From Halichondria panicea (Eukaryota > Porifera > Demospongiae > Suberitida > Halichondriidae), in assembly GCF_963675165.1 (NCBI RefSeq), contig NC_087383.1, positions 900,399-964,398 on the forward strand: a stretch of 64,000 bases of DNA, read 5' to 3'. Made by a program: the position numbers and the translations under genes. The notes below the pieces were generated by a model. It was given only the letters and a program-made list of their open reading frames with translations. It had not been told where the DNA came from and did not search any database. The stretch's first letter is position 1. Each line of letters begins with the position of its first letter. Below, piece after piece: positions 8,688-40,865 of the stretch.

Positions 8688-8904
8688 CTTGAAACACTTT
8701 TCAGCAGCTCAGAATAAGTTTTAGTTTCTGGAGCAGAAGTAAAATTAATGCTAGTTTCTATAGCATTTTCTTTGTACGCTATGACGTGACGTCACATGTA
8801 TGGCGCATGCGCAAGCTAGTGGTAAAGATCGTTAATGAAACTTAAACAGCTGCAAAAACATTATATTAACGACCCTTTTCCAACTAAATTTTCAAAGTTA
8901 GCGA
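8688..8904. promoter_or_regulatory. Bidirectional promoter with CRE, NRF1-like and GGTAAAGATCGTTAA sites
   Basis: This 217-bp spacer separates two opposed start codons. It contains TGACGTGACGTCAC (8783-8796, CRE-like), GCGCATGCGC (8803-8812, matching the NRF1 palindrome) and GGTAAAGATCGTTAA (8821-8835). The last motif recurs in two other divergent spacers of this window. Confidence 0.65.
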
Positions 8905-11685
8905 ATGGCGGTGCAGGAGGTTGTCGATTTTGTCCAGGAGCAGGAGCTAATAAGCGCACGGTACCTCAACGTGGAGCTCCAGTTCATCTGCCTGAACTGC
9001 TTCAACGCGCTGCATCATTATGAGACAGAGCATGTGTCTAGGAACTGGTACAATACCTTGGCAGGTACGTACGTGTGTGGGGCTATTCTAGTATAGTGGT
9101 GTCAGTGCCTGGATATCAATGATACTAGGACCTAGCGACCCCTTTAATTAAAATAGCTACAAATTAAACAAAACTATCCGATATGCCAGTTATGTGTCTG
9201 ATCACGTTTCTATCAAACACGTACCTTTTTTTATTTAATTACAGGAATGCTGTATAAAAATGATGTCACACGTCTTCATCCTTTGACTACCAAGCTGGTC
9301 GGCATGATCTCCCTGGCCACCACAATGACTGCCTGTTTCACCGTGGGTCCCAGTCCAGAGCGACTGTCCCGCATAGGAGACTTCCTGGAGAGTGTGGCCG
9401 ATTACTCAGAGTTTAAGGAGGACCAACAGCTAGCCCAGGGAATGGCCAAACTAAGGGAGATGTACAGCCAAGTCTTGGTGGGTAGCTCACAGTGATTACA
9501 GGGGGGGGGGCTGGGTGCTGTAGATGATAATTAAGGTTTGACCTGTGTATGTGTCTTATTTTAAAGGGTGTTCCTTAAAAAGAGAAGGTGCAGCTGCTTG
9601 GCCTTCACTGAGAGCATTAGATTGTTTAGCCTATATTTACGATGTGTGCCATATACTGTTGATTGTGTATTTTCATGGATAATTGGGTATCTCTTGATTG
9701 TACCTTGAACCCATGTCTGTATAGAGTCAGCTTTTGTTATAGCGCTAAGAACCTGTCTGTTGACTATTACTTGTATAACACACGTGTCCTTTGACCCCTA
9801 CAGAAAAGTTCCTCAAATCTTGCGTTGTGTGATTTCCGGTCAGAGATGCTTGATCTGATAAGCTCAGCAATAGCCAAATTTTGGCCACTCATGAAATATT
9901 ATAAGGTGATTTAGTGCGAAAATGTTACATGTGTTTTGTACAGACTTAATAATTATTACATGTACAATGTCATGTAAGTGTTGGAATGGTTAGCTTGCAG
10001 TAATGACCACGGTGTTTGCAATGTGGTCACAAAGTCTACAACTCAAGGACAACCTTGAACCTTCTGTACACACACACACACACACACACACATCAGAGGA
10101 GGTACGACACGTGTGCCTTGATTAGGCTAATTGCCTCTGCAATAACCTTGAGCGTTGGCGTAATTATGCCTCGATTATCGCCCACGCTCAACGTTATTAC
10201 AGAGGCAATGAGGCACGCGTGTCGTACCTCCTCTGCACACACACACAATACACCCTCACACACACACAACACACCCTCCCACACACACACACACACACAC
10301 CCCCACACACACACACACCCTCACACATACACACACACACACACACACACACACACACACACACACACACACACACACACACACACAGGGGATCCAGATA
10401 CAGCGAATAACACCTCCATCACCACCAAAATCTCCTCTACCACCAGAATCTCCCCGACCAACAATCCCTCAAATTCCAAGCAACCAACTTTCCGACTCAA
10501 GCGATGATTCACCCAACGACTTGGACCAGGACGAAATTGCTAGTGCCACGTGGCTGAATCAAGCACGAGTATCAGTAGGGGGTGGTCTAAACGAGGGTGC
10601 ATCTGCCAGTAAGGAGGCTGGCGGTCAGACTATAGGAGCAGCGGAACGAATGGATGTCAGCTCTGGTAGCGAGGGAGAGGAGGAGGAGGAGGACGTGAGC
10701 AGCAAGAAGAAGCGAGTATTGATCGTCGATTCTGATTGTGATTCTGAGATTAAGACCCTTCGACGAAGAGTTAGGTGAGAGGAAATTGTTGTTTTTTCGT
10801 GTTTTGTTTTTTACTGCTTACTGATGTTAGTGTGTTGAATGAATCCTAGCCTACAGTACTTTATCTCTGCTTACTGTATATGGCATCTTCACACCCACAC
10901 ACACACACACGCACGCACACACACACGCACGCGCACACACACACGCACGCACACACACACACACACACACACACACACACACACACACACGCGCGCACAC
11001 ACACACACACACACACACACACACACACACACACACACACACACGCATGTACACAGCTACTCCCAAACTCCATCGCCAGTCCCATTACGAGAAGTGTGGA
11101 GCAGCGACGAATCAGATAATGTACCTGTCAGGTCAAGACACTTCAGTAAGACTACTACCGTAATTGCACCAATCACTATCCACTGCCCATAATATTAGGC
11201 CATCATTACCTCTCTACAACTTGAGTACCGTATAGCGGGTAATTTCGTGGGGTAAAAAAATGTGTTTGCTTCAATGCAGTACACGCGTTCCGGTAAACCA
11301 CGCCTAGGTTTTCGTTGGTAAAAATGTCATCAAGGTTAGCTTGTTGACGAAAATAACGTCATGAAATGACTCGCAGTACAGTAGTTATATTTTGTCAACC
11401 TTTACCCAATTTTGTAATAATATCTTCATAATTATGAACGTACGTGTACACTGATTGCACTCTCCACTCTGCTCAGGGGGTGCTCCTGCGAAGGCTAAAC
11501 GTCCACGGAAGAGCAAAGTTCCCTGGACTAGTAAAGAAGAGCAGGCTCTGATTAGAGGAGTCCAAAAATTTGGAGCTGGAAAGTGGAAGCTTGTATTATT
11601 GAACTCCAATGATTTTCACCCATCACGAAATTCTTGCAGCCTGAAGGACAAGTATAGGATTTTGCTCAAGCATGGAGTCGTTTAA
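8905..11685 (+). CDS. TRF-like telomere-binding protein with C-terminal telobox Myb domain
   Basis: Six exons with matching phases: 8905-9064, 9245-9477, 9804-9905, 10389-10774, 11057-11145, 11477-11685 (392 aa). The C-terminus has a single Myb/SANT repeat of TRF type: [28 protein letters not shown], then the telobox-like [14 protein letters not shown] at the very end, as in TERF1/TERF2. The N-terminal 165 residues ([20 protein letters not shown] onward) are helical and sit where the TRFH dimerisation domain lies in TRFs, but are shorter than its usual 200 or so. The linker is Pro/Ser/acidic-rich with a basic KKKR patch. I infer double-stranded TTAGGG-repeat binding; TRFH identity needs profile search. 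Start 8905 was chosen because it keeps frame; the ATG at 8835 is out of frame. Intron 3 holds a foldback element inside a CA microsatellite. Confidence 0.85.
10094..10235. mobile_element. 142-bp foldback MITE with CAGAGGAGGTACGACA ends
   Basis: Terminal inverted repeats CAGAGGAGGTACGACACG / CGTGTCGTACCTCCTCTG extend with few mismatches into nearly full-length arms (ATTGCCTCTG..AATAAC on both sides), so the element can form one long hairpin. It lies inside a CA microsatellite in intron 3 of the TRF-like gene. A second member is at 21219-21345. The flanking CA repeat hides any target duplication. No coding capacity. Confidence 0.9.
10260..10388. repeat. CA microsatellite in the TRF-like gene
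   Basis: Long (CA)n tract ending exactly at the acceptor of exon 4 (10389), so the tract replaces the usual polypyrimidine stretch. Similar tracts lie at 10065-10092 and at 10890-11050, the latter again running almost up to an acceptor (11057). Confidence 0.95.
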
Positions 11686-12327
11686 TAGCTAGTGTTGCCT
11701 TCTGTGAACCTTTCAACGTTTTTGGCAGGTTATGGTTTTGAGTTTTCTGATCGCTTATAATTTTATATATCTAATCTTTTTATCACACTATGGTTTTGAG
11801 TTTCAACATAAAACTACATGTAACATGATTGTATATATTATTGAACACAAATTTGTTGTAATAATATTCATTTCTTGTTTTTGTCATTAATTTACTTCTG
11901 AATAATTTGTTATGTGTTGGAGTAATTTGGTGGCTATAATTATAATAACATTTGCAGCACGAAATCTCTTGTTTAGAAACAGCAATGCATTTATTCGGAA
12001 GCAACTAATTAAGTCAGTGATGATTCAACAGATAACACTGACACTTACGCACGTACATCATTTCTTTCTAAGCTTTCCAGAAAATCATAAATGTTTGAAA
12101 TTGGATCAATGATACCAAAGTTACGGCTGTTCAACTGCAACCCCCCCCCCCCCCGTTTAATCCATGGTTATACGTACATTTGTACATGTGCACGGTGGGT
12201 ATAATTACACGTCTCATGATGAACTGTTATTACTCATAGAGAATCAACTAAGTATACAAAATCACTATACTAAAGATGCACACACACAAACACATAATAA
12301 TATTGAGAGCCTATTAAGACACGACTC
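11686..12327. other. Convergent spacer with poly-C tract
   Basis: Joins the 3' ends of the TRF-like gene (plus) and the adaptor gene (minus). AT-rich; contains a C16 run near 12140. Nothing gene-like is seen. Confidence 0.5.
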
Positions 12328-40040: not shown

Positions 40041-40160
40041 TTTTACAATAATTTATATATACACAAACAAAGAATAGAAGAAACATTGTAATTAGTATAA
40101 TTATTCATGTTCATCTCTTGGTTCTGAATTAACACAAACATTACGAAAAATAAGCAGTCA

Positions 40161-40561
40161 TCATTTCTTTGCCTCAGCTGCTTTTTTTTGCTTTTCTCTC
40201 ATGATGTCAGCGTCACGTTCTTTCCTTGACTCCAGCCCCTGCGCCTTGTTGCCACCCTCTGTACTTGCCTTGCCCTTGCCCAGGGCTGCCTGCTTCTTGG
40301 CATTCCTGGCTCTTGCCAACTCTCTCTGGTTGCCTCCTGCATGGGGGGAAACAAAGTAGCGTCAAATAGGTTGACATTATAATATTAAATCTGTCCTTCC
40401 CTGCATGTATGCAATGCATCTTAAAGAAAGAAAAAAGTATACACAGGTATCATTTATATATGTACACTTAAGAATAATTTAAGGGTGAACGACAACAACA
40501 CTGGACTGCTAATGCTAAAAACTTAAATAGTATCTCTAGAGATATTAAACATACGTGTCAT
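40161..40561 (-). CDS. SERF2: SERF family protein (small EDRK-rich factor), intact
   Basis: Two exons: 40561-40555 (ATGACAC) and 40336-40161; the junction codon gives MTRGNQRELARARNAKKQ, the family signature. The rest is AALGKGKASTEGGNKAQGLE then SRKERDADIMREKQKKAAEA and KK-stop, 60 residues, the usual length. SERF/MOAG-4 proteins are tiny, highly charged and promote amyloid aggregation of other proteins; animal SERF1 and SERF2 cannot be told apart here. The exon-1 split (seven coding bases) explains why a simple frame search misses it. A relic of exon 2 lies at 24950-25122. It is divergent from the CCDC87-like gene. Confidence 0.92.
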
Positions 40562-40865
40562 TGTGGAGATGGAACTTTGGACCGGATTGGAACAGGGAAT
40601 GATTGAATAAAAGGGCCTGTAAAATGAATGGAACAGGGTAATCCCATAAATCAATCACACACACCTTTGTGAAGGGCAGTAAGGATGAGGCTATGAAGAG
40701 CTTTTGATAGAAGAAAGGCTTGAATTCTTACTTTAGACAACAATGGAATTGCCTTTTGTTTACTTGCTAATATTTCGTTTTCGCTATTTTAGATCATCTA
40801 TGACTATGGTAAAGATCGTTGAATATGGGAACATTAATTTTGTTGTCATAGGAACGCATATCAAA
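40562..40865. promoter_or_regulatory. Bidirectional promoter of SERF and the CCDC87-like gene, with GGTAAAGATCGTTGA
   Basis: 304 bp between opposed starts. GGTAAAGATCGTTGA at 40808-40822 lies 44 bp before the plus-strand ATG and differs at one base from the copy at 8821. Confidence 0.6.

Follow-up and report, generated by a model that had tools for sequence, protein, structure and literature searches.

Genes and motif copies in the window

The DNA analysed here is a stretch of 64,000 nucleotides from the sponge Halichondria panicea (contig NC_087383.1, positions 900,399 to 964,398 of the forward strand), referred to below as the window. It contains several short spacers between head-to-head genes, and in three of these spacers a 15-bp word of the exact pattern GGTAAAGATCGTTRA is found, at 8821 (+), 19119 (-) and 40808 (+), as rechecked letter by letter. 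A fourth exact copy was not detected by the pattern scan of the 64 kb. With up to three mismatches allowed, the window yields eight matches against a shuffle mean of 2.33, and none of 100 shuffles reached eight; the core GGTAAAG[AG]TC occurs five times, against once in the reversed window. The features, with positions counted from the first letter of the window, are as follows.

4149 to 4360: fourth head-to-head spacer, 212 bp, between start codons at 4148 and 4361
4267 to 4281, minus strand: weaker motif copy, GGTAAAGGTCGTGTA, with the core GGTAAAGGTC intact, in the fourth head-to-head spacer
8688 to 8904: first head-to-head spacer, ATG to ATG, between starts at 8687 and 8905
8821 to 8835, plus strand: motif copy 1, GGTAAAGATCGTTAA; the ATG at 8905 follows after 69 bp
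8905 to 11682, plus strand: gene with a C-terminal Myb domain (PF00249, E 1.1e-07 in 11455 to 11682); TRF-like character and exon joining by eye
17883 to 18916, minus strand: 5' part of a PH-domain gene (PF00169, E 9.7e-06; PH exon 17883 to 18032); first exon by eye
18917 to 19194: second head-to-head spacer, between starts at 18916 and 19195, with CACGTG 5 bp from the motif
19119 to 19133, minus strand: motif copy 2, reading GGTAAAGATCGTTAA on that strand; the NSA2-type ATG at 19195 follows after 61 bp
19195 to 21243, plus strand: NSA2-type ribosome-biogenesis gene (PF01201, E 1.5e-24); name and first exons by eye
26800 to 26809, plus strand: copy of the core alone, GGTAAAGGTC; by eye, intronic in a minus-strand MSTO1-like gene
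40164 to 40561, minus strand: SERF-like gene (PF04419, E 5e-05); first exon by eye
40562 to 40865: third head-to-head spacer, between starts at 40561 and 40866
40808 to 40822, plus strand: motif copy 3, GGTAAAGATCGTTGA, with a GTTGA ending, 43 bp before the ATG at 40866

The three exact copies, with these positions and strands and with no other in the window, had been noticed in a first-pass annotation of the DNA, and the scan agrees with it; each copy lies in a short ATG-to-ATG spacer as had been claimed, and the gaps to the plus-strand ATG, given there as 44–70 bp, correspond within one base to those measured here from the motif edge to the checked start codons at 8905, 19195 and 40866. The weaker copy at 4267–4281, in a fourth short spacer, had been missed. 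Four of the five core copies thereby fall in four head-to-head spacers that together make up 1,011 bp, or 1.6% of the window, although any p-value for this coincidence is indicative only, because the motif itself selected three of the four spacers. At least one longer head-to-head stretch, read by eye at about 59–61 kb of the window, holds no core copy. In the first spacer, GCGCATGCGC, which we take to be an NRF1-type word, is located at 8803–8812, 8 bp before the motif.

Among the remaining neighbours, the fourth spacer separates a DUF2039/C9orf85-like gene (minus strand, PF10217) from an alpha-galactosidase-like gene (plus strand, PF16499), both recognized by Pfam. The minus-strand gene starting at 8687 and the plus-strand gene starting at 40866 were read by eye only, and one Pfam scan of each gave no match; two scans of the exons at 8902–9093 and 9202–9492 of the gene starting at 8905 were likewise without a Pfam match. 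The window holds two SERF-like copies, at 24962–25186 and 40164–40361, the Pfam scan having been made on the second only, as well as three similar gene copies with a signal-peptide-like start (MEVVTLLFLLGTAGYVHADCYP...) at 23746–24768, 29411–30416 and 33885–34873. The words CCGTATAGC and GGTAATTT recur in scattered short stretches (11220–11260, 19940–20110, 41180–41205 and 42900–42930) that resemble, by eye, a small non-autonomous element; the stretches at 41180 and 42914 supply two of the eight three-mismatch matches. No tRNA was found in the window.

Abundance, letters and flanks of the word in the genome

The whole genome (131,455,214 bases in 39 contigs, intron-rich) was scanned with the reversed word as control; the counts of repeats are lower bounds, and very common words were skipped. 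The exact 15-mer pattern is present in 103 copies against 2 for the control, and with up to one mismatch in 747 copies against 47. Shortened or altered forms are similarly in excess: GGTAAAGNTCNTTRA occurs 554 times (control 8), GGTAAAGATCGT 277 times (17), TAAAGATCGTTAA 156 times (4) and the A variant GGTAAAGATCATTRA 353 times (1), the last count being inflated by repeats. Tolerance of the pattern is seen with GGNNAAGATCGTTAA (100 against 13), GGTANNGNTCGTTAA (174 against 25) and GGTAAAGATCGNNNNC (86 against 6). The right end of the word is more variable than the left, and the TA at positions 3–4 is nearly invariant, only 3 of the 66 places with letters listed departing from it. The word contains one CpG, for which CA is the commonest variant among the matches listed, a ranking inflated by repeats. 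Its letters are dyad-like around GATC, and a palindromic homodimer site was considered and rejected; both perfect palindromes, GGTAAAGATCTTTACC and GTTAACGATCGTTAAC, are absent from the genome (0 copies each), and the word was therefore treated as asymmetric.

Two features of its distribution along the contigs were also observed. On contigs C2–C11, a contig end is no more than 1 Mb away for 27 of the 50 exact sites, against an expectation of 26.5% (p 3e-05), and for 22 of 39 after merging of sites less than 60 kb apart; GGTAAAGATCGT has the same excess on C2, C3, C5, C6 and C7 (27 of 56). Gene density may be the cause. On C10, between 1635205 and 1661041, seven copies of TAAAGATCGTTAA follow each other in one direction, 3–7 kb apart and none of them in the full 15-mer list; this series is probably a gene or repeat array.

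The first-pass annotation had itself named many intergenic copies marking a repeat as a finding that would speak against a promoter element. Sites were read at 53 of the 103 exact copies (3 of them in the window) and at the first 30 listed of the 353 A-variant copies, with one more in the same stretches, giving 84 sites in 80 loci (numbered with the prefix L) plus the window. With the word masked and 200 bp on each side compared, they fall into up to 41 flank groups, of which 33 consist of a single site and eight of several sites (24, 9, 5, 4, 3, 2, 2 and 2; one of the pairs is formed by two sites 41 bp apart in L002). Among the 41 representatives the word is sharply distinct from its flanks and the shared letters do not extend past 15; position 16 weakly favours C (24 of 41), and the letters after it are A-rich. 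Because the 84 sites fall into so many groups, the word is taken to be a motif and not one repeat.

Sharing of sequence well beyond the word is thus a property of the eight multi-site groups and not of the sites overall. Several repeat families and one retroelement end do carry the 15-mer, and this part of the earlier reservation was borne out. In the group of four, the homology of two loci with L030 spans 284 and 309 bp and ends 40 bp after the word, a third has a longer stretch in common with it, and two loci hold a reverse transcriptase or integrase open reading frame (ORF); from this homology and these ORFs, the end of a retroelement seems to carry the site. The proposal that the word is nothing more than a functionless fragment, derived from a transposable element or a tandem repeat, which has spread into promoters can draw on these LTR-like ends of an element with reverse transcriptase and integrase ORFs, on the 24 sites of contig C1 (0.1–1.0 Mb) that represent one amplified repeat, and on the seven further multi-site groups. 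It is nevertheless very unlikely: the 200-bp flanks of 33 of the 41 groups match no other group (L011 being related further out), the sharply shared letters end at 15 with the sixteenth weak, and carriage by LTR-like ends is equally consistent with a hitch-hiking regulatory site. For most groups a repeat-only origin is rejected by the flank comparison, and many unrelated contexts are left that repeats do not explain.

The amplified unit on C1 (L031–L054), a contig more than twice the length of the next, includes a minisatellite of about 40 bp; two comparisons gave 93% likeness (across 2,495 bp) and 96% likeness (across 1,271 bp), and all 24 copies read run in the same direction, each with GGTAAAGATCATTAA. 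In an intron of a LIM gene (L007, about 1501–1700), tandem units like GGTAAAGGTCACC follow the exact site, by eye.

Gene context, orientation and clustering of the sites

Gene context was assessed for the 38 flank groups outside the window, with the ATG as proxy for the transcription start throughout. A site was counted strictly when an ATG in the open frame of a matched domain lay within 115 bp. With the density of gene starts taken, from a count by eye, as about 15 in 64 kb, the 115 bp preceding the starts cover 2.7% of positions, and about one of the 38 groups would be expected there. The strict set comprises four groups (L020, L024, L070 and L079; p 0.019); with those whose first exon was joined by eye (L004, L062 and L071) the number rises to seven (p 6e-05), and with the cases read by eye (the plus-strand gene of L001, L009, L019 and L061) to eleven (p 3e-09). 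Such an excess near gene starts is what a promoter-proximal transcription factor site would give. In the promoter set the gap between site and ATG ranges from 14 bp (a spliced start, by eye) to about 112 bp. The loci with a named gene are the following.

L020: CutC/CUTC (E 9e-75); a spliced start 14 bp away is possible by eye
L024: PRPF3 (PDB, E 2e-09)
L070: Y-family polymerase (PF00817, E 3.5e-07), POLK-like by eye
L079: XPNPEP1 (PDB, E 0.0097; next exon PF01321, E 2.5e-07)
L004: NUDIX/MORN divergent pair; first exon joined by eye
L071: SYF1, paired with a CCNB1IP1-like gene on the opposite side; first exon joined by eye
L062: weak DAP3-like gene; first exon by eye
L009: sushi-receptor family; start by eye
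L001: THOC7, start 217 bp from the site (PDB, E 1.5e-04); plus-strand gene by eye
L008: near a phosphatase frame
L003: near a histidine-phosphatase frame

Two leads were left out of the promoter count, namely L002, with a P4HA-like start about 300 bp away (PF08336, E 0.0033), and L078, with an nSMase-like frame whose start position is doubtful (PF03372, E 0.0074). Many of the scanned frames matched no family, including both of L061, both of L063, and those of L019 and L066. Scoring of ORFs by codon usage was dropped, as it drifted toward low-complexity proline-rich frames.

The first-pass annotation had proposed a core element of bidirectional, housekeeping-type promoters. The bidirectional, housekeeping part is partly borne out, by the genome-wide excess, the share of copies near ATGs and identified neighbours that are for the most part housekeeping genes, and several divergent pairs are found (L004, L071 and the pairs of the window), but the sites are not exclusive to bidirectional promoters, since the opposite neighbour of the site at L061 and L070 appears, by eye, to end toward it. 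The designation as a core element is not supported. A strict core-promoter element of the TATA box or initiator type, which the general transcription machinery would recognise at a set position and in a single orientation, would agree with the short gaps in the promoter set and with the window copies, which precede the plus-strand ATG by 43–69 bp. The word, however, runs in the direction of the nearest gene in six cases (8821, 40808, L004, L020, L062 and L079) and against it in four (19119, L024, L061 and L070), some of these genes having been read by eye, and L071 has a gene on each side of the site. The gaps vary over the range given above rather than being fixed, copies are single in some places and clustered in others, and some are intronic. 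Because orientation and spacing vary and some copies lie in introns, such an element is unlikely. The tandem sushi-receptor family illustrates the same point: the paralogous spacers L009–L012 have one copy each at about the same place, and the copy in L009 (where PF00084 was matched) is inverted relative to those in L010, L011 and L012, which suggests that the spacers retain the site but not its direction.

Clustering was evaluated by counting further copies with up to three mismatches around the 41 representatives, with the reversed and the complemented word as controls. Within 150 bp there are 11 further copies, against 1 and 1 for the control words, and within 1,500 bp there are 23, against 3 and 3. 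All 11 near copies keep GGTA, and 8 of them keep GGTAAAGATC or GGTAAAGGTC. This homotypic clustering is again of the kind associated with promoter-proximal transcription factor sites.

Companion words were compared between the surroundings of the sites (12,300 bp) and the DNA 500–1,500 bp away (81,959 bp). NRF1-type words are about 11 times denser near the sites (5 matches near against 3 far), a figure that depends on small numbers, counts a full palindrome twice and includes the window's own site. CACGTG and CRE-type words are each 2.9 times denser near the sites, CpG has 0.8 times its far density, and G+C falls to 37–39% within 100 bp of the word.

The proximity of the word to start codons, and in places to splice sites, as in COG4 (L068, by eye), might also point to an element at the RNA level, that is, part of a 5' untranslated region, a splicing signal or a small RNA gene. 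This is extremely improbable, as the word is found on either strand relative to the gene and at gathering scores Rfam matched neither the window nor any of 20 loci, most of which lack a clear gene context.

A putative promoter-near binding site

The word is a real, highly enriched cis-element, of an ordinary kind (a promoter-near putative binding site) in an uncommon lineage. GGTAAAGATC(G/A)TTAA is probably, at roughly 0.7, a site recognised by a DNA-binding protein with sequence specificity, which would often act near the transcription starts of broadly used genes. Direct support comes from the frequency of the word, the independent flanks in most groups, the self-clustering, the excess near gene starts and the lack of a fixed direction; the identified neighbours include PRPF3, SYF1, XPNPEP1, CUTC and NSA2. 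The putative protein would recognise GGTAAAG(A/G)TC plus a looser (G/A)TTAA, the left part presumably being the main contact, and it would act from either strand and sometimes from introns. Binding near the transcription start, on either side, is predicted to keep the spacer accessible for one or both genes and to help open or position the promoter, and so may serve both genes of a divergent pair. With such a long, information-rich and asymmetric site, our guess is a multi-finger zinc-finger protein or another large factor.

Several observations weigh against this reading. Just 53 of the 103 exact sites were read, and the 41 flank groups are an upper count, L011, single at 200 bp, being a paralogue of the L009 group further out. 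The background rate was derived from an eye count of gene starts (about 15) in a single window, and the ORFs beside sites were inspected more closely than other ORFs; with the limit set at 250 bp, the strict set becomes 5 of 38 (p 0.07). The DAP3-like assignment of L062 comes from a PDB match with an E value of 0.37, and a frame of L061 is without any match, including in a PDB search. Sites are also located, with borders drawn by eye, in introns of three genes recognised by search tools, namely COG4 (L068, directly after the 5' splice site), a Rab/Ras-type gene (L018) and the LIM gene of L007. The site of L065 sits about 174 bp downstream of an aldolase frame, the arrangement at L006 seems by eye to be tail-to-tail, and no gene context has been assigned to roughly half of the groups. 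Among the companion words, CCAAT and the Kozak/YY1-type word are no more than 1.3 and 1.4 times denser near the sites, and ETS words number 0 near the sites against 8 far.

Drosophila, too, has sequence-specific factors at the promoters of broadly expressed genes, DREF at the housekeeping promoter element DRE and M1BP at Motif 1; the letters of both elements differ from those of the present word. In vertebrates, the NRF1, YY1 and ETS motifs of bidirectional promoters are free in orientation, close to the start and associated with a housekeeping gene set. NRF1-type words beside some of the present sites recall this set; the word itself is different and longer, and is not accompanied by ETS words. 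In the literature, searches with long strings matched unrelated work only, and the search that combined 10-mers as terms could miss a paper with a single 10-mer.

For promoters of another sponge, Amphimedon queenslandica, 15 over-represented motifs are listed, four of them without clear similarity to known ones (PMC4773876). By their description, these motifs resemble the present word in their closeness to transcription starts and in their presence at divergent as well as other promoters; Nrf-1 and E-box words belong to the set (PMC4773876). A further parallel is offered by the loop-anchor motifs CTEP1 and CTEP2 of ctenophores and the Mutator-TIR motif of placozoans, which are documented with contact maps (PMC12221973). 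These are lineage-specific promoter motifs on many genes, as the present word may be, and the placozoan one is tied to transposons; in contrast, the ctenophore motif is GC-rich (PMC12221973).

That the word instead marks promoters and domain borders as the site of an architectural or insulator-type protein, with a role like that of CTEP1/CTEP2, is doubtful. The long asymmetric word, its homotypic clusters, its copies in both promoters and introns, the single CpG with its repeat-inflated CA variant and the excess of exact sites near contig ends are consistent with such a role, but contacts in the sponge Ephydatia are described, in a figure legend, as diffuse and without conspicuous dots in Micro-C (PMC12221973). 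It is an equally doubtful, speculative idea that the site belongs to an architectural or general promoter factor particular to this early-branching animal lineage, with a CTEP1-like role, and is sensitive to methylation of its CpG, which would link housekeeping promoters, copies borne by transposable elements and chromosome ends.

The recognition site of a sequence-specific protein, if that is what the word is, would constitute a concrete and highly specific promoter cis-element for this lineage, in which, to our knowledge, few promoter motifs have known factors. The 15-bp word, with about 100 perfect copies in the genome, would then be an exact bait for finding the protein, and its occurrence would raise the question of lineage-specific factors acting beside old ones such as NRF1 at the housekeeping and divergent promoters of animals.

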